Origin: Alphaproteobacteria bacterium
GTDB taxonomy: Bacteria; Pseudomonadota; Alphaproteobacteria; Reyranellales; Reyranellaceae
DNA: 64,000 nt
Assembly: GCA_017308235.1 (NCBI GenBank)
Contig: JAFKFL010000007.1
Location: 372,001-436,000 of the forward strand
Direction of reading: 5' to 3'
Below are positions 20,043-36,821 of the stretch, in pieces. Position 1 is the stretch's first letter. Every line of letters starts with the position of its first letter. The notes under the pieces are model-generated. The model was given only the letters and a program-made list of their open reading frames with translations. It had not been told where the DNA came from and made no database searches. The position numbers and the translations under genes are program-made.

Positions 20043-20417
20043 TCAAGGCGCCGTCGCCTCCCAACGGCAGGCTTCGTCGTTGGAGGTGACGAGCAGCCGC
20101 TTCGGTCTGACCGATAGGTCGGCCCGGATCTTGAACCGATACCCGCCGGCGTAGACATTCGGGGCGACGCGATCCAGGCCGTAGTGAACGCCGCCCGCCG
20201 TCAGGATCTCAGCCGTGTCGTTTTTGACGGTGAGGGTCATTGGGCGCGTCATGCTGGGGTCGCCCAGGATGCACCCGGTAACGCTGCCAGGCTGCACGGA
20301 GAGGGTGAACACCGTCACCGAATTGGGATCCATCGGCCCAGCCGTGTCGTTCTTTTGTGTGCACCCTATGACGAAAGTCGCGGCAGCGAGTGCGACAGCA
20401 GTTTTGATGTTGAGCAT
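20043..20417 (-). CDS. Small lipoprotein of unknown function
   Basis: 124 residues from the ATG at 20417, preceded by GGGGAGA. The signal ends in a lipobox (FVIGC, C19). The mature part reads PNSVTVFTLSVQPGSVTGCI, MTRPMTLTVKNDTAEILTAGG and YRFKIRADLSVRPKRLLVTS with two further cysteines, and looks like a beta sandwich. I do not recognise the family. The frame extends to 20513 but without a better start. Confidence 0.7.
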   Translation of the reverse strand: MLNIKTAVALAAATFVIGCTQKNDTAGPMDPNSVTVFTLSVQPGSVTGCILGDPSMTRPMTLTVKNDTAEILTAGGVHYGLDRVAPNVYAGGYRFKIRADLSVRPKRLLVTSNDEACRWEATAP

Positions 20418-20819
20418 GGCAGTCTCCCCTAGGGACGTTTCGAGGTGGTCGATACGGAGATTGAACTGGGCGCGATCGCCGCTGTCGATCGCCGGCTTCT
20501 GTTGGTAGGGCATTTCGCCGGCAGAGAGGCGGATGCCAGGTCCGAGAAAGTTAGAACGGCCTTCTACTGCAGCATCTATCGGCGGAACTTTGCAAGCTAT
20601 GCAGATTCGGCGAAATGAAAGACCGAGCAGCCTGCCACAGCATGCGGGTCATCGTGGCCGCGCGCATAAGCGAGATGCGGCAGGTGACTATGCAATTTGT
20701 GACACGTTTGGTTTTTATTGCGACGTGTGGTTGCATCGACCACAGTGATGCCGGTTCGCGTTCATTTGATGTTGTTGGTGTATGTGTGGTGGCGTTCTCA
20801 ATGTTGGTAGGGGGCCAGC
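20418..20819. other. 402-base gap upstream of AraC regulator 1
   Basis: There is no supportable gene. It contains one copy of the CTATGCAG-type motif at 20597-20612 and is otherwise AT-richer toward the AraC start. Confidence 0.5.
20597..20612 (+). promoter_or_regulatory. CTATGCAGAATCGGC-type motif, copy 1
   Basis: Reads CTATGCAGATTCGGCG, same orientation as AraC regulator 1 and about 208-223 bases upstream of its start. See the copies at 24326, 25511, 26559, 27733 and 27831. Confidence 0.55.
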
Positions 20820-21797
20820 ATGCCTGAGAGCCGTTTCTTCACCTTCGACGATCCTGATCGATTTAGATCGACGATCCGCGCGGGGACGTATGAGCTGTTC
20901 GTCAAATCCAAAGGTAACTTTCGCGCCGAACTAACGCGCATCGATCTGGAACGGCTTTGGATGCAGCGTGGTGACACCAACCTCTCATGGATCATGGCGG
21001 CGTCAGTAGATTTGAAACGCGCGCCGCTCCTATTCCTTGCCGACGCCGATCAGGCCTCGTTAAGGGAAGATGGAATGGAAGTGTCATCCGGAGAGATCGT
21101 TGTCTTCCGCCGGCAGGCGACTAATCACTCCTGGACGTCGGGTGCTTGCCGTCAGGCAACGATGTCTCTTACGCACGAAGATCTGGCTGAGGCGGGCGAG
21201 GCGATTGCCGGCCGCGAACTGACGGCGCCGCTGAATACATGTGTCGTCCGGCCAGCTCCCGTTGCGATGATGCACTTGACAGCATTGCACAAGGCCGCAG
21301 TAGAGCTTGCAAGGCGGTCACCAGGCACTCTCGCGAATCCAGGTATTGCGCACGCCCTGGAGCAAAAGCTTGTGCATGCCATGGTCACGTGCCTGAGCAC
21401 AGATGCACCAGTCGAGAGGAGGTTCTGTGGCCTGCAACATTCCAGGGTGATCAATCGATTCGAGCGCTTTCTGGAAACCAAGCAATACCAGCCGGTATAC
21501 TTGGCCGAGATCTGCGCTGCCATTGGCGCATCTGAGCGAACGCTTCGCACTTGTTGCCAAGAGCACTATGGCATGGGGCCGGTCCGCTATCTCTGGCTGC
21601 GACGGATGCATTTGGCACGTCGCGCACTCTTGCGGGCAGAGGCTGCCGGTTCGACCGTCACTACCATTGCAGCAGACCATGGCTTCTGGGAGTTCGGACG
21701 GTTCTCGGTCGAGTACCGCACTCTGTTTGGCGAATTGCCATCGGTGTCGTTGCATCGACCACCGGAGATGCTGCGTGAGCAGTGGACCTTGCAGTAA
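20820..21797 (+). CDS. AraC-family transcriptional regulator 1
   Basis: 325 residues. The N-terminal half (FFTFDDPDRFRSTIRAG, then a beta-rich segment) is a cupin-like sensor; the C-terminal HTH pair is NRFERFLETKQYQPVYLAEI, then IGASERTLRTCCQEHYGMGP, with FWEFGRFSVEYRTLFGELP as the second signature. Its HTH closely matches that of the minus-strand AraC at 24372-25349, and a third paralogue is at 26660-27637. A CTATGCAG-type motif lies upstream. The inducer is unknown. Confidence 0.9.
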   Translation: MPESRFFTFDDPDRFRSTIRAGTYELFVKSKGNFRAELTRIDLERLWMQRGDTNLSWIMAASVDLKRAPLLFLADADQASLREDGMEVSSGEIVVFRRQATNHSWTSGACRQATMSLTHEDLAEAGEAIAGRELTAPLNTCVVRPAPVAMMHLTALHKAAVELARRSPGTLANPGIAHALEQKLVHAMVTCLSTDAPVERRFCGLQHSRVINRFERFLETKQYQPVYLAEICAAIGASERTLRTCCQEHYGMGPVRYLWLRRMHLARRALLRAEAAGSTVTTIAADHGFWEFGRFSVEYRTLFGELPSVSLHRPPEMLREQWTLQ

Positions 21798-21951
21798 AAC
21801 GATGGGGCTTTGATTCGTAAAATAAGAACACGCGATCGCGCACGCTCCTTCACTCCTCGCGCTTCTTATAGGCCGTGAACTATCAACGCGATTGGTCGTT
21901 TCGTTGGCGGTTTTTGCCAAGTCGTTTAGAGGAGCCAGGCGTCCCTGCAGC

Positions 21952-22974
21952 TCACTCAAAGGCGAAAATGCGCTTCCAGTCGCTCTTCATGCTGATGACT
22001 GTCCAGCCGCTTCTCTTTGCCTCGTCGTAGAGTTGCTGGGTGAAGGTGCCGACCTTGGATTCCGGCAAGCCTTGCGCCGGACCGTAGGCGTACTCGCGCT
22101 CGGCATCGTCGTGCAGCAACAGCATGGAGAGCCGCGCACCGGTGCCTGTCTTGGTATATTCGAGCATCTCGCGGTCTCCGGTCGAATTGCCGACGGCGGC
22201 AAGCGGACGCCGACCAATCATCAGGTGAATGCCCTCCGGTTTGCCGCCGTAGTTGTCGTTTAGCAGCAGCTTTGCTTCTTTGATGAGCACTGGCTTTCCG
22301 TCCTTGCCGTAGTCGTACTTCGTGGCGCCGACGGTGCCGACGATCTGCTCCGGCGGAATGCCATAGACGCGTTCGGCATAGACCCGCACGAAGTCCTGGC
22401 CTCCGCCGGTCACGATGTAGGTCCTGAAGGCATTGGTCCGCAGATATTGCAGGACTTCCTGCATCGGCTTGTAGACAAGCTCCGTATAGGGCCGCTTCCA
22501 GCGAGGATCGCGCGCAGTGTCAAACCATTTGGCGACCTCGACCCTGAACTCGTCGACCGACATGCCGGTCAAGGTCAGGGCGAGAATTTTCTCAAGATCC
22601 TCTATCGGCAGCCGGGCAATCGCCTCTCTATCGCCCGACATCACGGTTTTGAACGGCTCCACGTCGGCGAGCTCGGGCCGCGCCTTGACCAGCACGGGAA
22701 CACGCTCCAGGCAGTAAACGACCTGGGTGTACATCGGCTTTTCGACCCACAAGGTGCCATCCTGGTCAAAGGTAGCGATACGCTCGGCAGGCGGCACAAA
22801 GGTAGGGCTGCCTTGCGTCGTTGTCGCCTGCACGAAGTCGACGATTGCCTTCTTGGTGGCGCCATCGTTCCAGGAGGGCAGTGGATCGGTCTGTGCCTGC
22901 GCCACCCCGCCGACGATCAGGCTGAGCACGCCGGTCGCTAGAATAGTACGGCGTGCTAGGCCCGCTCCAGACAT
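21952..22974 (-). CDS. Exported HAD-family phosphatase-like protein
   Basis: 340 residues from the ATG at 22974, with GGAG 7 bases upstream (22986 and 23004 are alternatives). A twin-arginine-like signal (LARRTILATGVLSLIVGGVAQAQ) is followed by a haloacid dehalogenase fold: TFDQDGTLW holds D70 and D72 (DxD motif), TYIVTGGGQDFVRVYAE is the motif II region and AVGNSTGDREMLEYT the metal-binding motif IV. It should be a periplasmic phosphatase; the substrate is unknown. Its start lies 68 bases downstream of the stop of the 2H-phosphoesterase-like gene, suggesting one transcript. Confidence 0.82.
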   Translation of the reverse strand: MSGAGLARRTILATGVLSLIVGGVAQAQTDPLPSWNDGATKKAIVDFVQATTTQGSPTFVPPAERIATFDQDGTLWVEKPMYTQVVYCLERVPVLVKARPELADVEPFKTVMSGDREAIARLPIEDLEKILALTLTGMSVDEFRVEVAKWFDTARDPRWKRPYTELVYKPMQEVLQYLRTNAFRTYIVTGGGQDFVRVYAERVYGIPPEQIVGTVGATKYDYGKDGKPVLIKEAKLLLNDNYGGKPEGIHLMIGRRPLAAVGNSTGDREMLEYTKTGTGARLSMLLLHDDAEREYAYGPAQGLPESKVGTFTQQLYDEAKRSGWTVISMKSDWKRIFAFE

Positions 22975-23042
22975 GCGCTTCTCCATTTCATCGTCAGCCT
23001 TCATAGGAGCAAGACTCGGCACATCTGGTCGATGTCCTCTCT

Positions 23043-23777
23043 TCATGGCGGCAGCGTCAGTGCCTTGAGTTCCTTGCGGGCTGTGCCAAAGGTTCCTAGC
23101 TGATAGATCGACGCGCCGGCCACGGAGAACGTGAACGAGGGGAATGGCTCCGCCAGCATTTGGTTCAAATAGGTCTCGGTTCCGACGCCGATCGTAACGT
23201 GCGGATTGAATTTTTTGCCCGACGCGATCGTGACAAAATTGGCGACGTATTCGATCAGGGACTTCTGAATATCGCGTCCATCTTCTTCGCTGAAGAACGC
23301 CGCCGGGGTTCCTGTCTTCACGGTGTAAGGTTCGACGGCTTTGATGAGTGCATCTTGTAGTCGATGCAGGTCTTCGGTCGGTTCAACAACGATTCCCGCA
23401 AGGCCGAACGGCGGATCAGGAATGTAGTAATATTTGGACGCCTTTAGCGTCCACGCTCTGGGCTTCTCTTTGGTCAGAACGGCATTTGCCGCCGCAAATA
23501 CCTTGTCGAGATCATCCGTGCGGATGAATTGCTGCAACATGGTGACATGCGGATGATGCGTCGCATCCAGGGCAAAGCCCTTCGAGAAAGACTTGAGCAG
23601 GCGCGCGTTGGCAGCTTTGGCATGCTGGATCATCGTCGCGTCGGGTTCGAGAGCGATATCGACCGCCGTCACCGGACTCTGTTGCGCGGCCGCCTCTTGC
23701 GCAAAAGCAAACACGAGTGCCACGCCAGCAGCGACATTCGCCATCCGCCCGAGACTTAACTTTCGGTCAATCTTCAC
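23043..23777 (-). CDS. Exported 2H-phosphoesterase-like protein
   Basis: 244 residues from the GTG at 23777, which has AAAGGA 7-8 bases upstream and places a signal peptide (LGRMANVAAGVALVFAFAQEAAA) at the N-terminus. HPHVTM (H77, T79) and NPHVTIG (H193, T195) are the paired H-x-T motifs of 2H phosphoesterases such as 2'-5' RNA ligase/LigT. In that superfamily the motifs cut 2',3'-cyclic or 2'-5' phosphodiesters. An exported version is unusual. It is upstream of, and probably co-transcribed with, the HAD gene. Confidence 0.72.
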   Translation of the reverse strand: MKIDRKLSLGRMANVAAGVALVFAFAQEAAAQQSPVTAVDIALEPDATMIQHAKAANARLLKSFSKGFALDATHHPHVTMLQQFIRTDDLDKVFAAANAVLTKEKPRAWTLKASKYYYIPDPPFGLAGIVVEPTEDLHRLQDALIKAVEPYTVKTGTPAAFFSEEDGRDIQKSLIEYVANFVTIASGKKFNPHVTIGVGTETYLNQMLAEPFPSFTFSVAGASIYQLGTFGTARKELKALTLPP

Positions 23778-23971
23778 GACGAACGTCCTTTCTCGCGCCA
23801 CCTCTTGCTCTGGGACCGGATCCCGACGCTGACAGTTCAGTCGATTCCGCAGAAGCGAAACCGGCTATACGGTGGGGCCGCGCGCACGTATCGATCCAGA
23901 CCATCTTTGGCGTCCGAGACCGACAAGCCTCCCGGACGCGACAAATGGCGGTGCACGCAGGAGCAACTGAA

Positions 23972-24238
23972 CTACGGCTTCTGCTTGGGAAGTGGAATTT
24001 TTTGGCCTGCGAGAATATTCGAGAGCGTCGTAATGGCGCTCTTAGGGTCGCCCTTGTCGCACTGCGACATGGCTTCAGCAGCGGCGACGTTAACCTGATT
24101 GAACCGAGCATAGGCACGGTAGAGGTTGCTTAGTTCATAGCAATAGTCCTGATCGCTCAGGGCCGTCGCCGACTGCGCGAATACACCCGTGGAAACCAGC
24201 ATCGCTGTCGCGGCCAGCGCCAGGCTACGATAGATCAT
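23972..24238 (-). CDS. Small secreted two-cysteine protein (LYR-Y family), copy 1
   Basis: 88 residues from the ATG at 24238, with AGGAG upstream. A signal peptide (RSLALAATAMLVSTGVFAQ) precedes a helical core: YCYELSNLYRAYARF with C33, then AMSQCDKGDPKSAITTLSNI with C60 and a PLP-rich tail. The protein at 42132-42443 has the same layout: C, L, LYR-Y, C, GD, I, L and PLP in order. The two cysteines may form a disulfide. The function is unknown. A CTATGCAG-type motif lies about 90 bases upstream of the start. Confidence 0.7.
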   Translation of the reverse strand: MIYRSLALAATAMLVSTGVFAQSATALSDQDYCYELSNLYRAYARFNQVNVAAAEAMSQCDKGDPKSAITTLSNILAGQKIPLPKQKP

Positions 24239-24325
24239 GTTTTCTCTCCTCTGGTCTTTTGTTGATGTGTCTGGCGGGCCAGCCAAGCCAGATAGGGCAT
24301 ACCAACATTGTTGGAAGGGGACGCA

Positions 24326-24343
24326 CTATGCAGAAACGGCGAA
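24326..24343 (+). promoter_or_regulatory. CTATGCAGAATCGGC-type motif, copy 2
   Basis: Reads CTATGCAGAAACGGCGAA, 88-105 bases upstream of the small secreted gene (24238, minus strand) and in the opposite orientation to it. Confidence 0.55.
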
Positions 24344-24371
24344 TCCCGACACTAACCACCGGCGACCCATC

Positions 24372-25349
24372 TTAGTGCAACACTCCCTGGTTGAGAGTTT
24401 GATCCGGCGGTCTGCGGAGGGATGCTGAAGGCGATTCGCCGAACAGTGCACGGTACTCGACCGAAAACCGTCCGAGTTCCCAGAAGCCAAGATCCATAGC
24501 CATCGAAGTCACACTCGCGGTGGCCGGGTCCGCATGCAACAGGGCGAGTCGCGCGAGGTGCATGCGCCGGAGCCAAAGATAGTGAACCGGACCCATGCCG
24601 AAATGTTCATTGCAGCAGGATCGCAGCGTACGCTCCGAGACACCGATGGTGGCACACATTTCGGCCAGGTGAACCGGCTCGTAGCGCTTGGCCTCGAGGA
24701 AATCCTCGAAGCGGGTAATTATCCTGGCATGTTGTCGGCCGTGCCGCTCCGTTTCCCTTGGCATGTCCCCGCTGAGGCCGTTCACCATCGCATGTATCAG
24801 CTGCTGCTCCAGCGCTTTGGCGACTGTCCGATTTGCGAGAACGTTCGGAGCTGTCCTGGCAAGATGCGTCGTTGCTCGGTGAAGATGCATCAAGCGAGCC
24901 ATAAGGCGCGGCGACGGTCGAGCGACGACGGTGTTCAAGGGCGCCGATATCTCTCGGCCCGCGATAGCACGGCCTGCGGCCGCCAGATCTTCGTGCCTGA
25001 GCGACATTGAAGCATTGCGCGACGCTGCCGCGGTTCGCAAATGACCGGTCGCGTTTCGGCCCCAAACAATGATCTCACCGGGGCGAAACTCGGTACCGCC
25101 AAGATGAATCGATCTCTGGCGCATATCGCCAAGAAACGTGATCGGCACTCGCGTAGGACCAATCGTGGCGCGCATGATTCTGGGAAGACTGTCGGCGCTC
25201 TGTTGCATCAGGAGCCGACCAAGGTCGACTTGCATCATGTCAGCGTGGAAGTTTCCTTTGGCCGTGACGAGCAGACTCACGTCGACGGCACGAAATGCCG
25301 CCTGGAAAGCGTCAGGATCGGAAAATTTGAGAACGCGACTCTGCGGCAT
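24372..25349 (-). CDS. AraC-family transcriptional regulator 2
   Basis: 325 residues from the ATG at 25349 (GGAGG 8 bases upstream). It parallels AraC regulator 1 from the first residues: MPQSRVLKFSDPDAF against MPESRFFTFDDPDRF, and ITRFEDFLEAKRYEPVHLAE with VSERTLRSCCNEHFGMGP. The C-terminal FWELGRFSVEYRALFGESPS completes the HTH. A CTATGCAG-type motif lies about 160 bases upstream in the same orientation. The N-terminal domain would bind an unknown inducer. Confidence 0.9.
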   Translation of the reverse strand: MPQSRVLKFSDPDAFQAAFRAVDVSLLVTAKGNFHADMMQVDLGRLLMQQSADSLPRIMRATIGPTRVPITFLGDMRQRSIHLGGTEFRPGEIIVWGRNATGHLRTAAASRNASMSLRHEDLAAAGRAIAGREISAPLNTVVARPSPRLMARLMHLHRATTHLARTAPNVLANRTVAKALEQQLIHAMVNGLSGDMPRETERHGRQHARIITRFEDFLEAKRYEPVHLAEMCATIGVSERTLRSCCNEHFGMGPVHYLWLRRMHLARLALLHADPATASVTSMAMDLGFWELGRFSVEYRALFGESPSASLRRPPDQTLNQGVLH

Positions 25350-25510
25350 ATCCAGTGCCTCCCCCCGGCAAGTACTGGAAAACTGACGCATCGCTGACGG
25401 CTACAACTATACGCCGCACACGCGCCAGCATTGTGGGTATCGCCTCCGCTTGGGGCAAGCATCGACTTTCGGTCTTTCGAAGCGTCAAAGACATTTAATG
25501 ATTCAAGTTT

Positions 25511-25525
25511 GCCGATTCTGCATAG
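25511..25525 (-). promoter_or_regulatory. CTATGCAGAATCGGC-type motif, copy 3
   Basis: On the minus strand it reads CTATGCAGAATCGGC, same orientation as AraC regulator 2 and about 162-176 bases upstream of its start. Confidence 0.55.
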
Positions 25526-25573
25526 ACACGAGAAGTCGACGTCGAGCGGATTGCGGCACCTGCGACGCCGTGT

Positions 25574-26488
25574 CTAGAAACGGAAGCTCACGCCGATGAT
25601 CGGGCCGTAAAGGACTTCGTTGAAGCCGAAGGCGTCCGTGCCGCCGCCTGGCGAGACATAGTCGACTCCCAGCGCGCGAAAGCCGATCAATGCAGCGATC
25701 TGGTAGCCGGTGAACTGCCACGCGTAGGAATAAACGCCGACCGCCTGCCAGGAAATCTGGCTACCCAGCCCGAAGCCGCCGATGTCACCCCTAACGAAAA
25801 TCTGTTGGTTGGGCGTGAATTGGTGACGCACGCGAAAGCCTACGACCGGGTCGACCCATTGAATGGCGTCCGCACGGGCGATGGCGAACCCGGCGGTGCG
25901 CTCGAGGTGGAGACGAGAGAGATCGACATTGACCTGAGCATCGAGCGTGGCGTCGACCGACAGATTCCAGTAGCGAAAGCCCCCAACAGCATCGAGAGCG
26001 GTAAATGACCCCTCTGAGCCGGGCCAGTGAAAGAGCTCGTAGATGCCTCCCATCTCGACGATGGCGATCTGGGTCGTCAACGCTGCGCTGGCTGTGGCAG
26101 TGATCTTCAGGCCCGCGATGGGGTTGCGATAGTTGGTCTGGTTTGCGCCAAAACCGAGTTTCGCGAAAACGAGATCTGAGTAGAAGCCAACACGTCCCTT
26201 GTTTGCCTCGAAATAGCCCATGAATCCGCCGAGCGAATCGCTCTTTTGCACCAGATCGATGAAGCTTGCGTTGGTCCCTATGGTCTGGTTGCGCGCGGTG
26301 ACATTGCCAGAGATGTTTATGGCCCAGCCATAGAGGGCAGCATTGAATCGCCAGGGCTCGGGGTCAGAACGAGGACTATCTTCCGCCAGGACCGGGCAAG
26401 TGAGCGCCAGCCAGGCTCCGGCAACGATCACAAGCGTCGAAATTGGCAAACCCGCCATCGGTCGCAAAGCTTGCCGCATGATACTCAC
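25574..26488 (-). CDS. Outer-membrane beta-barrel-like protein, copy 1
   Basis: 304 residues with a signal peptide ending near VLAED. The mature protein alternates short hydrophobic strands (WRFNAALYGWAINISGNVT, GRVGFYSDLVFAKLGFG, AIQWVDPVVGFRVRHQF) and ends with an aromatic-terminated strand (GPIIGVSFRF), the usual sorting signal for barrels. A paralogue at 35814-36821 shares long stretches such as ASFIDLVQKSDSL and HQFTP. I recognise no named porin family. A CTATGCAG-type motif precedes it. Confidence 0.75.
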   Translation of the reverse strand: MSIMRQALRPMAGLPISTLVIVAGAWLALTCPVLAEDSPRSDPEPWRFNAALYGWAINISGNVTARNQTIGTNASFIDLVQKSDSLGGFMGYFEANKGRVGFYSDLVFAKLGFGANQTNYRNPIAGLKITATASAALTTQIAIVEMGGIYELFHWPGSEGSFTALDAVGGFRYWNLSVDATLDAQVNVDLSRLHLERTAGFAIARADAIQWVDPVVGFRVRHQFTPNQQIFVRGDIGGFGLGSQISWQAVGVYSYAWQFTGYQIAALIGFRALGVDYVSPGGGTDAFGFNEVLYGPIIGVSFRF

Positions 26489-26558
26489 CCCGCCCTTTCT
26501 GCCGCAGGCCAGAGCAGCAGGATCTCAACAGGACGGTGACCGCGCTGTTTGGACCGCA

Positions 26559-26576
26559 CTATGCAGAATCGGCGAA
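26559..26576 (+). promoter_or_regulatory. CTATGCAGAATCGGC-type motif, copy 4
   Basis: Reads CTATGCAGAATCGGCGAA, 71-88 bases upstream of the beta-barrel gene start (26488, minus) and opposite in orientation. Confidence 0.6.
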
Positions 26577-26659
26577 GTTGTCAGCGGAGGCCCAGGCGCA
26601 CGGTCGGCACGAGCGGTCGGTCGGCCGAGCGGCGACACTGCAAAATGATTTCGAGTGAG

Positions 26660-27637
26660 TTACGGGACAGAATCGAATGAACTGAGCCCATCAACCGTCG
26701 AACGACGTAGAGTTGCCGACGGTGCTTCGCCGAATATCGAGCGATACGCCGCGGCGAACCGGCCGGGCTCTGAAAAGCCAAAGTTTCTCGCGATCGTTGC
26801 GATGCTTGCCGTTGCAATATTGCTCCGCATGAGCTGTGAACGAGCGAGGTTCAGTCGGCGCAGCCGGGCATAACTAAGCGGGCTCCGTCCGATGAACTCG
26901 GCGCAGCACATGCGCAACGTTCGCTCTGGCACGCCAATGGCTGCGCAAAGGGCTGACGTCGGCAGCGGTCGGCCGCGTTGCGATTCAAGGACATGCTCGA
27001 AGCGATCCATGATCGCCGCGTGACGCTGACGAGTGGTGGAACTGCAGCGGGGCTTACCGCTTGTGAGAGCTTGTACAAGCGCGTGGATTAGATCCTGCTC
27101 GAGCGCGCGCGCGACTTCCCGATGCGCCATCAGGTCTGGCCTCGATCGGACAAGGTCACAGGCCTGCGTGTATAGGCGAAGAAAGCGTCCTGAGACCTTC
27201 GGTGGCATTCGCAAGAACCGGGGCACTTTAGGTGGCTCCCAATCCTCCCCAGTCAGCGTTCTGCTGAATCTGTGAAGCTGGTCTGGCGTTAGAGAAACCA
27301 GACCCCAGCGCGCAGATCCAAGCGTCTGTTGGTGGAAATGCTCGCCGCGGCTGTGAAGGATCATTTCGCCCCGGCGCAACGGTACGCCGTTCCAGACCGG
27401 TTGCGGGTCATTATGTAGAGGAAAAGAAACGAATACCGGCGCCGGGGCGAGGGATATGAAGGCGATGCGCGGTGCTCTTTCAACGATACGGACGAGTCTG
27501 ATGTGGTCCAGTTGGACCCATGTCACGTCCGATCTGAAAGCATCGCTTCTCGTTAGCACGAGGGCGATGGTCAGCCCTGGCACGTTCCTGGGATAGTCAT
27601 CGGGATCTGTAAAGGTGTTGGTGCCGCACCCAATCAT
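26660..27637 (-). CDS. AraC-family transcriptional regulator 3
   Basis: From the ATG at 27637 it is 325 residues, the same length as regulators 1 and 2, and its opening MIGCGTNTFTDPDDY lines up with theirs; the frame is open to a GTG at 27691 without a visible ribosome site. The HTH core reads MDRFEHVLESQRGRPLPTSA, then IGVPERTLRMCCAEFIGRSP and FGFSEPGRFAAAYRSIFGEA. It is more diverged than the other two. It diverges from the formylglycine/sulfatase operon with two motif copies in between. Confidence 0.88.
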   Translation of the reverse strand: MIGCGTNTFTDPDDYPRNVPGLTIALVLTRSDAFRSDVTWVQLDHIRLVRIVERAPRIAFISLAPAPVFVSFPLHNDPQPVWNGVPLRRGEMILHSRGEHFHQQTLGSARWGLVSLTPDQLHRFSRTLTGEDWEPPKVPRFLRMPPKVSGRFLRLYTQACDLVRSRPDLMAHREVARALEQDLIHALVQALTSGKPRCSSTTRQRHAAIMDRFEHVLESQRGRPLPTSALCAAIGVPERTLRMCCAEFIGRSPLSYARLRRLNLARSQLMRSNIATASIATIARNFGFSEPGRFAAAYRSIFGEAPSATLRRSTVDGLSSFDSVP

Positions 27638-27732
27638 TGGCCATCGCTTTGCCGCGCGAGCGGATTGGCAGGTTGGAGCCTTTTCGGACACGCATAGACA
27701 AGGGAAGAGTAGGGTCGGTGATACGCGGCCGA

Positions 27733-27747
27733 CTATGCAGAATCGGA
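27733..27747 (+). promoter_or_regulatory. CTATGCAGAATCGGC-type motif, copy 5
   Basis: Reads CTATGCAGAATCGGA, 96 bases upstream of the AraC regulator 3 start and in the opposite orientation. It pairs with copy 6 as an inverted repeat about 83 bases apart. Confidence 0.55.
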
Positions 27748-27830
27748 AGGGGGCGACCTAGCTCGTTACTTTTCGGCTGAGTCGCCGCCAAGACGCGGCA
27801 ACCATCCTCTGGCATAGCCATCGAACAATT

Positions 27831-27845
27831 GCCGTTTATGCATAG
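27831..27845 (-). promoter_or_regulatory. CTATGCAGAATCGGC-type motif, copy 6
   Basis: On the minus strand it reads CTATGCATAAACGGC, 104-118 bases upstream of the FGE start. It differs from copy 2 by a single base. Confidence 0.5.
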
Positions 27846-27948
27846 CTCTCCGCAGCATCACCGGTGAACAGTAACGCTGTCTAACAACGATGATGAGATT
27901 GCTCCATCGCTCCCATCCGAGGAGCAATCGGGTAACGGCGAGAGGCGC

Positions 27949-28923
27949 ATGGACGACTGCAGCATCGCGTCTGTGGAGCAGCCGCAGCGAACGGCGCCAT
28001 CGAACATGATCTATGTTCCCGGCGGCACGTTCCGCATGGGCTCCGATAAGCATTACCCGGAAGAAGCGCCAGCTCATCGCGTGACGGTTCACGGTTTTTG
28101 GATCGACCCCACGCCTGTAACCAATCGTGAGTTCCGCCGATTCGTGAACGATACCGGCTACGTTACTTTCGCCGAAATCGCACCAGATCCGAAAGACTAT
28201 CCCGGCGCACTGCCGCAGATGCTGCGGGCGGCGTCCCTTGTATTCACGCCGCCGAACACGCCGGTTGATCTCCGCGACTGGTCACAGTGGTGGTCATTCA
28301 AAGCCGGCGCCAATTGGCGTCGACCCTATGGACGCCGTAGCTCGGCAAGCGGGCTCAACGACCATCCCGTGGTTCACATCGCTTATCGCGACGCCGAAGC
28401 TTACGCCAAATGGGCCGGCAAGGAGCTGCCAAGCGAAGCCGAATGGGAATTTGCTGCGCGTGGCGGTCTGGATGGCGCCGAATTCGCCTGGGGCGACGAG
28501 TTCACGCCTGGCGGCAAACACATGGCCAATACCTGGCAGGGCAACTTCCCACACGAGAATCTTTGCGCCGATAGCTTTGACCGTACGTCACCTGTGATGG
28601 CGTTTCCGCCCAACGCTTACGGCATCTGCGACATGATCGGCAATGTTTGGGAATGGACGACCGATTGGTGGTCGGCCAAGCACCGGGCTGACGAGACGGA
28701 GTCGTGCTGCGTTCACGAGGATCCGCGCAGTGGGTGCGAGGGCGAAAGCTACGATCCGCGTCTGCCCACAATCAAAATTCCCCGCAAAGTTATCAAAGGT
28801 GGCTCCCACCTCTGCGCGCCGAACTACTGCCGTCGCTATCGCCCTGCCGCGCGCCATGCGGAGCCGGTGGACACGTCCACCAGCCATCTCGGGTTCAGGT
28901 GTGTCATCCGAACAAAGGAGTGA
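27949..28923 (+). CDS. Formylglycine-generating enzyme (FGE/SUMF1 family)
   Basis: 324 residues. It converts the active-site cysteine of sulfatases to formylglycine. NMIYVPGGTFRMGSDKHYPEE opens the domain, ELPSEAEWEFAARGG and MIGNVWEWTTDWW are the family's core motifs, and GGSHLCAPNYCRRYR contains the catalytic pair C289 and C294, matching human C336 and C341. The C-terminal HLGFRC is also conserved. Its likely client, the sulfatase, starts 4 bases after the stop, so the pair is one operon. Confidence 0.95.
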   Translation: MDDCSIASVEQPQRTAPSNMIYVPGGTFRMGSDKHYPEEAPAHRVTVHGFWIDPTPVTNREFRRFVNDTGYVTFAEIAPDPKDYPGALPQMLRAASLVFTPPNTPVDLRDWSQWWSFKAGANWRRPYGRRSSASGLNDHPVVHIAYRDAEAYAKWAGKELPSEAEWEFAARGGLDGAEFAWGDEFTPGGKHMANTWQGNFPHENLCADSFDRTSPVMAFPPNAYGICDMIGNVWEWTTDWWSAKHRADETESCCVHEDPRSGCEGESYDPRLPTIKIPRKVIKGGSHLCAPNYCRRYRPAARHAEPVDTSTSHLGFRCVIRTKE

Positions 28924-28926
28924 GAA

Positions 28927-30675
28927 ATGTCCAATGCCAACGACGAAGACAAAGCGGGGCTGAGCAAGAGCGCACTCAATCGCCGCAGGATGCTGCTTGC
29001 CAGCACCGCCATCGCCGCGGTGTCAGGGTTGAGCACGGCCGTTGAAGTTGCTCAGGCGCAACAAGCGTCGCCGTCAGGCAAACCGAACATTCTCGTGATC
29101 ATGGGTGATGATGTCGGCTGGTTCAACATCGGCGCTTACCATCGCGGAATCATGTCGGGCAAGACACCAAATCTCGACAAGCTGGCGTCTGAAGGCATGA
29201 TATTCACTGACTACTACGCCGAGGCGAGTTGCACCGCCGGGCGCGCCAATTTCATCACCGGCGAGATCCCGCTTCGCACCGGGTTGACCACCGTCGGCCA
29301 GGCCGGCGCCGATGTCGGCATTCCCGATGAGGCCGCGACGCTCGCCTCTGCACTCAAGGCACAAGGTTATGCCACAGGCCAATTTGGCAAGAACCACCTC
29401 GGCGATTTGAACAAGTATCTCCCGACGGTACACGGCTTCGACGAGTTCTTCGGATATCTGTATCACCTCGATGCGATGTCGGATCCGTATTGGTACTCGT
29501 TCCCTGTCGACCAGGACTATTACAACAAGTATGGCCCGCGCAGCCTGATCCACAGCTTCGCGACCGACACGGACGATGCGACCGTGATGCCGCGCTGGGG
29601 CAAGGTCGGCAAGCAGAGGATCGTCGATGAGGGGCCGCTGCCGCCATTCCCGGACATGTCGAACGTGCCGAACATGCACGACCTGCCGTTCCTGAAGGCG
29701 AAGTACGACATGACCACCTTCGACGAAGTGCTGGTCAAGGCGTCCAGCGACTTCATGGACAAGGCGAAGAAGGACGGCAAGCCGTTCTTCCTCTGGCACA
29801 ATACAACGCGCATGCACGTCTGGACCTTCCTCTCGAAGAAGTACAGTTCGATGCAGAACAGCCAGACGAACTACGGTCTCGAGGAAGCTGGCATGGCGCA
29901 GTTGGATGACGGCGTCGGCGCCTTGCTGAAGCACCTCGACGATATCGGTGAGGCCAAGAACACGATCGTCATCTTCACCACGGACAATGGCGCAGAGGTG
30001 TTCACCTGGCCCGATGGCGGCATGACGCCGTTCAAGAATACCAAGGGCACCGTCGGCGAGGGTGGTTTCCGCGTGCCGTGCATCATTCGCTGGCCCGGCC
30101 AGGTCAAGCCGGGCACGGTCGAGAACGGGATCTTCTCCGGCCTCGACTGGTTCCCCACCCTGATGGCGGCGGCCGGTAACCCGAACATCACGGATCAGCT
30201 GTTGAAAGGCGTGAAGCTCGGCGACCGGACTTACAAGAACCATCTCGACGGCTACAACCAGATGGACCTCCTGACAGGCAAGGGGCCGTCCAAGCGTCGC
30301 GAGATCTTCTACTTCGGGGGGCCGAATCTGGGCGCAGTTCGCATCGACGACTTCAAGTTCACGTTCTTTCAACAGCCCTACGGCTGGCCAGGTGAAAAGA
30401 TCACCACGGACATGCCCGTGATGGTGAATATTCGCCAGGATCCCTTCGAGCGTACGCCGATGATTCGCGGCGAATCGACCAACACAGGCGCCTTCGGCTA
30501 TGGCAACGACTTCTATGCCCGAGAGTTCTGGCGCTTCGTCCTCGTCCAGCAGTTTGTCGCGAAGCTGGCGCTAACGGCAGTCGACTATCCGCCGATGCAG
30601 GACCCGGCGTCCTTCAATCTCGATGCAGTGAAGAAGAAGATCGAGGAGATGGTCAAGAGCCACGCAGGTCAGTAA
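28927..30675 (+). CDS. Exported sulfatase (arylsulfatase family)
   Basis: 582 residues. A twin-arginine signal (LNRRRMLLASTAIAAVSG) exports it folded. Metal and active-site residues are visible: D61-D62 in IMGDDVGW, C102 and R106 in CTAGR, K155 and H157 in GKNHLGD, and D353-N354 in FTTDNGAE. The signature CTAGR lacks the proline of the usual C-x-P-S-R, a variant. After FGE modification it should hydrolyse a sulfate ester in the periplasm. The TauE-like gene downstream could dispose of sulfur anions. The substrate is unknown. Confidence 0.93.
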   Translation: MSNANDEDKAGLSKSALNRRRMLLASTAIAAVSGLSTAVEVAQAQQASPSGKPNILVIMGDDVGWFNIGAYHRGIMSGKTPNLDKLASEGMIFTDYYAEASCTAGRANFITGEIPLRTGLTTVGQAGADVGIPDEAATLASALKAQGYATGQFGKNHLGDLNKYLPTVHGFDEFFGYLYHLDAMSDPYWYSFPVDQDYYNKYGPRSLIHSFATDTDDATVMPRWGKVGKQRIVDEGPLPPFPDMSNVPNMHDLPFLKAKYDMTTFDEVLVKASSDFMDKAKKDGKPFFLWHNTTRMHVWTFLSKKYSSMQNSQTNYGLEEAGMAQLDDGVGALLKHLDDIGEAKNTIVIFTTDNGAEVFTWPDGGMTPFKNTKGTVGEGGFRVPCIIRWPGQVKPGTVENGIFSGLDWFPTLMAAAGNPNITDQLLKGVKLGDRTYKNHLDGYNQMDLLTGKGPSKRREIFYFGGPNLGAVRIDDFKFTFFQQPYGWPGEKITTDMPVMVNIRQDPFERTPMIRGESTNTGAFGYGNDFYAREFWRFVLVQQFVAKLALTAVDYPPMQDPASFNLDAVKKKIEEMVKSHAGQ

Positions 30676-35813: not shown

Positions 35814-36821
35814 TCAGAATCTGAAACTGGCGCCGATGATCGGTCCGTATAAAACTTCGTTGATGCCGACGGCATCGGGGCCGGACCCCGAACTGTAGTT
35901 CACGCCGAGCGCGCGGAAGCCGATCGTTGCGCCGACCTGATAGCCGGACGCTTGCCAGAGGTAGGTGTAGGCGGCGACCGCCTGCCAGGAGAACTGGCTG
36001 CCCAATCCGAAGCCGCCGATATCGGCCCGCGCCCACAGCTCCTGACGCGGCGTAAACTGGTGGCGGACACGAAAGCCGATGACGGGATCGACCCACTGGA
36101 TCGCATCGGAGCGTGCGACGGCCAGGCCAAAGGAACGGTCGAGGTGCTCGAGGCGAAGACGCGAGAAGTCGACGTTTGTCGTCAGGTCGAAGGAGGCATC
36201 GATCGAGTTGTTCCAGTAGCGGAAGCCGCCCAGCGCATCGATCGCGGTGAACGATCCTTCCGAACCCGGCCAGCGATAGACTTCGTACACGCCGCCCACC
36301 TCGACAATGAACATCTGATAGGTGAGGGCAGCGTTGGCGGTCGTACTGGTCTTGAGGCCGCCGATCGGATTGCGATAGTTGGTTTGCCCGGCACCGAAGC
36401 CCAACTTGGAAAAAACGAAATCGGTATAGATGCCGGCCTTGCCCTTGTTCGCTTCGAAATGGGCCATGAGGCCAGCGAGCGAATCGCTCTTTTGCACGAG
36501 GTCGATGAAGCTTGCGTTGGTGTCGATGGTCTGGCCGCGCGTTGTGACATTGCCGCTGACGCTCATTAGCCAGGCATAGGGCGTGACGGTGAAGCGCCAC
36601 GGCTCGGGATCGGCCGGCAGCTTCTGCTCGAGTTGAGCCGTGTCAGATGTTGGCGCTGCCTTCGCGGGATCGGCGGCTGCGGCAGACCGGGCGACGAGAA
36701 CCGAACTACTCGAAAGCACTGCCGCGACCAAGATCAATGCAAACTTGCCCGCCAAGCGCTGGCGCAAGTTCGCTCCTCTTCGCGATGCGCCCTCGCGCGA
36801 TCGCTTGCCCGTAAACGCCAT
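35814..36821 (-). CDS. Outer-membrane beta-barrel-like protein, copy 2
   Basis: 335 residues, a paralogue of 25574-26488 with a longer N-terminal extension after the signal (ADPAKAAPTSDTAQLEQKLP). Shared stretches include DPEPWRF, NASFIDLVQKSDSL, the LGFGA-QTNYRNPI segment and GGFGLGSQ. The C-terminus is GPIIGASFRF with terminal phenylalanine. Its start is divergent from the AraC regulator at 36948, and a TTGTCGC-type motif sits between. Confidence 0.75.
   Translation of the reverse strand: MAFTGKRSREGASRRGANLRQRLAGKFALILVAAVLSSSSVLVARSAAAADPAKAAPTSDTAQLEQKLPADPEPWRFTVTPYAWLMSVSGNVTTRGQTIDTNASFIDLVQKSDSLAGLMAHFEANKGKAGIYTDFVFSKLGFGAGQTNYRNPIGGLKTSTTANAALTYQMFIVEVGGVYEVYRWPGSEGSFTAIDALGGFRYWNNSIDASFDLTTNVDFSRLRLEHLDRSFGLAVARSDAIQWVDPVIGFRVRHQFTPRQELWARADIGGFGLGSQFSWQAVAAYTYLWQASGYQVGATIGFRALGVNYSSGSGPDAVGINEVLYGPIIGASFRF

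Follow-up and report, generated by a model that had tools for sequence, protein, structure and literature searches.

A candidate shared operator of paralogous AraC/XylS-type regulators in a sulfatase and envelope protein gene cluster of Reyranellaceae

Considering that three paralogous AraC/XylS-type regulators (AraC1, AraC2 and AraC3) are encoded in one alphaproteobacterial genome of the Reyranellaceae next to genes for a sulfatase, a formylglycine-generating-enzyme-like protein (FGE) and predicted lipoprotein, secreted and outer-membrane proteins, the question arises whether these regulators act through a common DNA element. The locus belongs to a window of 64 kilobases (kb), namely positions 372001-436000 of contig C15, to which the coordinates below refer unless another contig or locus is named. 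A first-pass annotation of this window listed six copies of a short motif, CTATGCAGAATCGGC, all located between genes, and proposed that they are an operator shared by the three paralogs. The six copies and their intergenic locations were confirmed by both a motif search and an independent weight matrix (Table 1). The proposal is supported by the exclusivity of the motif in the genome, its enrichment in related genomes and its covariation with the recognition helices, which together make it very probable that the motif is a shared operator of an AraC/XylS-type subfamily, in the form of a class II activator box, with three of the paralogs encoded in the cluster.

Six copies of one box confined to the cluster

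Shuffling of the window DNA (100 times) gave 2.0 matches to CTATGCAGAATCGGC at no more than 3 mismatches compared with the 8 observed, a number that 0 of 100 shuffles reached. When the entire genome (6,312,027 bases) was searched by pattern with mismatches allowed, all 5 matches with 0-1 mismatch turned out to be the copies of the window cluster, with ~0.4 such matches per genome, or 0.0005 per 7 kb, expected from base composition; the other ten matches with 2 mismatches are dispersed and occur near the chance rate. A longer form of the motif, YYKCCGAWTYTGCATAGY, retrieves the same five copies when 0-1 mismatch is allowed, the sixth having 2 mismatches to it, and all six matches to the pattern CTATGCANWWHCGGM in this genome fall inside the cluster. 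The weight matrix, built from 91 sites at other loci with the window sites excluded, assigns 21.4-26.9 bits to the six boxes, with the runner-up anywhere in the 64 kb at 9.5 bits. The same matrix scores a suspected seventh copy at 23849 at about -3 to -5 bits, and this site was rejected.

An ordinary repeat scattered evenly over the genome, a finding with which the first-pass proposal would have been incompatible, is excluded by the confinement of the 0-1-mismatch copies to the cluster. The presence of several near-identical copies in 7 kb could also be taken to indicate a dispersed repeat or mobile element that was copied inside the cluster. This explanation was rejected as having a negligible probability, given that the identity ends at ~20 base pairs (bp) and the flanks are unrelated, that other close copies are absent from the genome by pattern search, and that the distance to promoter-like elements is fixed across genera.

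Orientation of the boxes and promoter geometry

Within 450 bp of the sites, a gene start in the opposite orientation alone was found in 88 cases and one in the same orientation alone in 10, so that the orientation rule put forward in the first-pass annotation holds for the target genes. Alignment of 95 non-redundant sites toward the gene yielded the full box, YYTGCCGAWTYTGCATAGYC, and one added signal, an A at +22 combined with a T at +26. Counted by offset beyond the box, A-N3-T occurs in 34 sites at 21, in 20 at 22 and in 12 at 20, the mean elsewhere being 3.9, and 61 of the 95 sites have it at offset 20-22; the window conforms, with A-N3-T at the expected offset in 4 of the 5 gene-facing sites (boxes 1, 4, 5 and 6). 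If this signal is read as -11A and -7T of a -10 element, the box would occupy approximately -50 to -33, the position of a class II activator, and most of the sites would be class II boxes with their end ~33 bp upstream of the inferred start of transcription. Thus, at the level of sequence, the box lies at or abuts -35 with a -10-like element at a fixed distance, a placement that explains why the box is oriented opposite to the gene.

The same rule had AraC1 and AraC2 as genes with the box in their own orientation. For AraC2 this stands: box 3 has the same orientation as the gene (CTATGCA strand) and is located 162 bp upstream of it, and this arrangement is conserved in three other genomes (L073, L075 and L077). 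The assignment for AraC1 is doubtful; box 1 more probably serves the lipoprotein gene because it is in the opposite orientation to that gene and is followed by the -10-like GATGCT. AraC3 joins the target genes: box 5 (motif start 27733) is in the opposite orientation and, according to which start codon is used, 42-93 bp upstream of the gene. A variant of the box in which GCCG is replaced by TCCG (gene sense) precedes AraC3 in 11 of 14 instances, window box 5 included.

The gap between box 1 and AraC1 also contains the top non-box match of the window, a weak site (GTGTCACAAATTGCATAGTC, 20686-20705) that could be a degenerate autoregulatory site of AraC1.

A protein bound to the box would cover the -35 position and could thereby obstruct RNA polymerase, and autoregulation is common in the AraC family; both points are compatible with AraC proteins that are mainly repressors and block the -35 region at the box. 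We consider this alternative improbable. No separate -35-like element was found beside the box in the site alignment, and a box followed at 20-22 bp by a -10-like element resembles activator-dependent promoters. Moreover, AraC/XylS proteins mostly act as activators whose boxes are located at -35 or further upstream, and those that bind at or overlap -35 are usually activators (XylS, PMC4225500; EutR, PMC5821096; RamA, PMC8811837).

Distribution of the box in related genomes

In the genus (the Reyranella/Enhydrobacter group), orthologous AraC/sulfatase/FGE/beta-barrel clusters share the element, with a box before AraC3, AraC2, sulfatase, small secreted protein and other genes in G013, G015, G040, G043, G046, G032 and G057, and before the lipoprotein gene alone, on a short contig (L078), in G049. 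Across 65 genus genomes, 31 of 35 among the CTATGCANWWHCGGM matches listed are located where this system has its AraC or lipoprotein genes; with the reversed pattern, about a dozen matches were obtained in the same genomes, and these are scattered. The surroundings of 78 AraC relatives drawn from GTDB species genomes (868 kb, with a few loci overlapping or identical to genus members already counted) contain 110 exact sites vs 0 reversed ones, and 104 vs 4 sites with one mismatch. These relatives come mostly from Bradyrhizobium but are also represented in Rhodopila, Acetobacteraceae, Chelatococcus, Sphingopyxis, Bosea, Shinella, Azospirillum, Phenylobacterium and two Verrucomicrobia, and many of the bacteria concerned are soil dwellers. 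Box-adjacent genes (n=113) include 22 sulfatases and 22 AraC genes as well as genes for FGE, HAD, DUF1254/DUF1214, DUF992, LssY_C, outer-membrane and OmpA-like proteins, large autotransporter-like proteins and 1-Cys peroxiredoxin, and many of the products have signal-peptide-like N-termini. In related genomes the box is indeed enriched next to the same families of genes, an outcome that the first-pass annotation had named as prospective support for its proposal.

In the two Verrucomicrobia, metagenome-assembled genomes of Akkermansiaceae and Luteolibacter, a strong box with the same orientation as AraC lies ~50 bp or less from the start of that gene (L181 5935-5954 and L167 5956-5975), which may reflect horizontal transfer or bin contamination.

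Recognition helices and the sequence of the box

The two helix-turn-helix motifs of the regulators (HTH1 and HTH2) bear on the question of which protein reads the box. Among the AraC relatives of the genus, a set not selected on HTH2, a box of at least 16 bits is present within 2 kb of 21 of the 24 regulators with GF[WSTY][EQ] in HTH2 and of 0 of the 8 with GFWH; several GFWH regulators carry another recurring box, TGCRCAAAYYGG[AC]TAGCG, near the AraC gene (Table 1). When one base of the distal half was left free in the search with GFWE regulators, that base was found to follow the residue ahead of R-T-L in HTH1: for E (48 loci) it is G in 127 of 139 cases, for R it is mostly C (GCCC or GCGC), and for G it is A. 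With one best site per protein, the base at -11 (box coordinates) is C in 7/7 cases for R and G in 87/89 cases for E, Q, D, S, N or A (Fisher 3e-9, uncorrected for relatedness). The R state has ~4 origins on the best tree, 2 of them on supported branches, and the base is concordant in nearly every pairing. In the AlphaFold model of AraC2, the HTH1 recognition helix (239-250) begins with the residue in question, E239, and E291, the E of GFWE, directly precedes the HTH2 recognition helix (292-303). Because the recognition helices covary with the box, the AraC proteins are its probable readers, and the same covariation suggests that HTH1 probably reads the distal GCCG half and HTH2 the TGCATAG next to -35.

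The box of L078, which faces a gene on a short contig that carries no AraC gene, would be accommodated by an unrelated regulator that binds a box merely accompanying the cluster, an explanation we regard as very improbable given that both the presence and the sequence of the box follow the AraC helices, even where the other genes differ (peroxiredoxin, autotransporter-like, DUF1254). A more serious alternative, albeit still an unlikely one, is that one AraC paralog alone uses the box, whereas the others have their own sites and share the neighborhood via duplication. The HTH2 of AraC3 differs (GFSEPGRF vs GFWELGRF), the TCCG variant is favored at AraC3 promoters, and boxes persist in genomes or loci with one AraC relative (L162; in diverged form in L079 and L082). 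However, the HTH1 core ERTLR-CC is kept in all three paralogs, and boxes are found by AraC1/2-type genes alone as well as, on one short contig (L076), by an AraC3-type gene alone, so that one box goes with both types.

Several observations weigh against a shared class II operator. The -10-like A-N3-T was not found at the usual offset from box 2. Box 3, the only window copy without an opposite-orientation gene, has no gene on the usual target side and is oriented the wrong way to act on AraC2 in the class II mode, a true exception. Some regulators with GFWELGRF have no nearby site (L088, L159). The covariation between helix and base comprises few independent changes, such that a sign test is unable to reach significance; class-wide searches for a sister AraC-peroxiredoxin subfamily and a plasmid search retrieved no added members, and the test therefore stayed small. 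Finally, most of the distant loci of the broad sample were picked via the HTH2 signature GF[WS]E[LP]GRF, and therefore the result shows that regulators with this helix keep the box nearby.

Comparison with known systems

XylS and BenR, activators of the same general type, bind boxes that lie over -35 and contain TGCA and GG elements, as does the box described here; at XylS/BenR sites, TGCA-N6-GGNTA is directly repeated (PMC4225500, PMC6449761). In contrast, the present element is one box rather than two direct repeats, with the spacing TGCA-N5-GG, and its -35 neighbor is TGCATAG, which the covariation gives to HTH2, as opposed to the GGNTA end in XylS. A tandem operator of the XylS/BenR type was rejected given the N5 spacing, the reversed placement and the failure to find an XylS-like second conserved block beside the box in the aligned sites. 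The marbox of MarA, SoxS, Rob and RamA is likewise one asymmetric box of ~20 bp in two halves that serves several paralogs in the class II mode (PMC8811837, PMC10268841), but its sequence is different, and the regulon considered here is a local cluster, not a global one. Membership in the MarA/SoxS/Rob group of small proteins that consist mostly of the DNA-binding domain was rejected because the three AraC proteins are 325-343 amino acids long and have an N-terminal domain. To our knowledge, MarA-like proteins have no ligand domain. CuxR, an AraC-like activator that binds c-di-GMP (cyclic diguanylate), gave the best match over the full length when structures were compared with the AraC2 model, both having an N-terminal domain and two HTHs, but the global TM-score is low (0.42-0.49) and the identity is 16%. 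The nearest solved structures are this protein (PDB 5nla, full-length) and 3mn2 (isolated DNA-binding domain). By profile, the closest named families are AndR (E about 1e-27) and EutR (E about 1e-19). The EutR site is also located directly upstream of -35 (PMC5821096), but the target genes of both families are different, and both assignments were rejected, with 88-98 bits vs the NCBIfam equivalog cut-off of 350 for AndR and 54-70 bits vs 319 for EutR.

A model of the operator

By analogy with the MarA/SoxS/Rob box, the motif is most likely an activator box that regulators of the AraC/XylS family share and that also governs their own genes. In the model that we propose, a single asymmetric 20-bp box in front of each target gene would end at the -35 position. 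An AraC protein, as a monomer or as one subunit, would dock there so that HTH1 contacts the distal GCCG and HTH2 the TGCATAG by sigma region 4, and once bound it would bring in RNA polymerase in the manner of a class II activator. The predicted regulon consists of the lipoprotein, small secreted protein, beta-barrel and FGE-sulfatase genes, each preceded by a box, and the boxes before AraC3 and AraC2 would provide for autoregulation. The signal would presumably be bound by a cupin-like N-terminal domain. Most likely, the regulon is new and the kind of system is known; a literature search, in which subscription journals were not covered, found no description of this operator or of AraC-sulfatase-FGE regulation. 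The analysis supplies a candidate operator, promoter geometry and predicted regulon for a widespread, uncharacterized AraC subfamily tied to sulfatases, FGE (which matures them) and envelope proteins.

Components of the cluster

All three AraC proteins score above the cut-off of HTH_18, the C-terminal DNA-binding domain of the AraC/XylS family, and both HTHs are visible in the AraC2 model. In this model, made for AraC2 alone, the N-terminal domain is beta-rich with a predicted local distance difference test score (pLDDT) >90 and resembles the regulatory domains of AraC and RhaR, as would be expected of a cupin-like sensing domain. Further neighbors in the cluster encode a HAD hydrolase and a 2H-like protein. 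A beta-barrel paralog of the 25574-26488 gene, at 35814-36821, adjoins an MCE/Pqi-like operon and lacks a box.

Table 1. Boxes, genes of the cluster and related loci (bits, weight matrix score; match, start, strand and mismatches to CTATGCAGAATCGGC; ORF, open reading frame)
Feature	Coordinates	Strand	Description
Box 1	20595..20614	-	TTCGCCGAATCTGCATAGCT (gene sense); match 20597+ (1); lipoprotein gene/AraC1 gap; 24.4 bits; -10-like GATGCT 20571-20576 toward lipoprotein gene
Box 2	24324..24343	-	TTCGCCGTTTCTGCATAGTG; match 24326+ (1); 5' of small secreted protein gene; 22.1 bits
Box 3	25508..25527	+	TTTGCCGATTCTGCATAGAC; match 25511- (0); AraC2 is the sole gene it could serve; 26.9 bits
Box 4	26557..26576	-	TTCGCCGATTCTGCATAGTG; match 26559+ (0); 5' of beta-barrel gene; 24.6 bits; -10-like CACCGT 26533-26538
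Box 5	27731..27750	-	CCTTCCGATTCTGCATAGTC, TCCG variant; match 27733+ (1); 5' of AraC3; 24.7 bits; -10-like TACTCT 27706-27711
Box 6	27828..27847	+	ATTGCCGTTTATGCATAGCT; match 27831- (2); 5' of FGE/sulfatase operon; 21.4 bits; -10-like AACAGT 27867-27872
Predicted lipoprotein	20043..20513	-	Internal start ahead of lipobox near 20419; G049 ortholog has box in same geometry
AraC1	20820..21797	+	HTH_18 (Pfam) E=1.4e-18; HTH1 ERTLRTCC, HTH2 GFWEFGRF
Small secreted protein	23972..24238	-	Box-preceded homologs in L073, L075, L077
AraC2	24372..25349	-	HTH_18 (Pfam) E=4.8e-19; HTH1 ERTLRSCC, HTH2 GFWELGRF; AlphaFold mean pLDDT 92
Outer-membrane beta-barrel-like protein	25574..26488	-	No Pfam match; homologs adjoin boxes in related clusters
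AraC3	26660..27640	-	HTH_18 (Pfam) E=1.5e-18; HTH1 ERTLRMCC, HTH2 GFSEPGRF; longest ORF from 27691
FGE	27949..28923	+	Pfam FGE-sulfatase E=1.1e-83
Sulfatase, Cys-type	28927..30675	+	Pfam Sulfatase E=7.4e-51; SCTAGR seen in translation
C27 AraC/peroxiredoxin locus	C27:258319-259356		Equals L087 7318-8333
TGCRCAAAYYGG[AC]TAGCG boxes	L056 1131-1148; L058 1476-1493; L059 1451-1468; L061 2031-2048		By GFWH AraC genes

Other AraC relatives of the same genome and a possible specificity code

A fourth AraC relative of this genome (C27:258382-259356; HTH1 RRTLNLAC) is accompanied by a box, TGCCCAAATCGCATAG, ~60 bp before a 1-Cys peroxiredoxin-like gene. This box, a single exact copy in the genome, departs from the window box at the base predicted from the R of HTH1, and similar boxes accompany related AraC genes in G049 (L085) and G019 (L086). 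These observations suggest that the paralogs of the cluster share one box while a sister regulator of the same genome keeps its own.

We give roughly even chances to the broader possibility that a large AraC subfamily, extending from the Reyranella relatives to Bradyrhizobium, Acetobacteraceae and some Verrucomicrobia, has one decodable operator, in which a change from E/Q to R at the start of the HTH1 recognition helix switches one base of the distal half (GCCG to GCCC/GCGC), and a change from E to H at the equivalent residue of HTH2 goes with a switch of the proximal half from GCATAG to GG[AC]TAG. If so, helix-base switches would insulate paralogous regulons in one genome, for example, the sulfatase cluster and the peroxiredoxin pair of contig C27. 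Given that operator and recognition helices change together, they offer a protein-DNA code testable by single residue or base swaps, and this specificity code, along with the wide distribution, lifts the case above the routine; the literature search retrieved no description of either.

The fifth AraC relative of the genome (C17:89387-90355; L088), with 73% identity to the one on C27, has no recognizable box within 2 kb. In Azospirillum (L174), an AraC-peroxiredoxin pair comes with a GCCG box.

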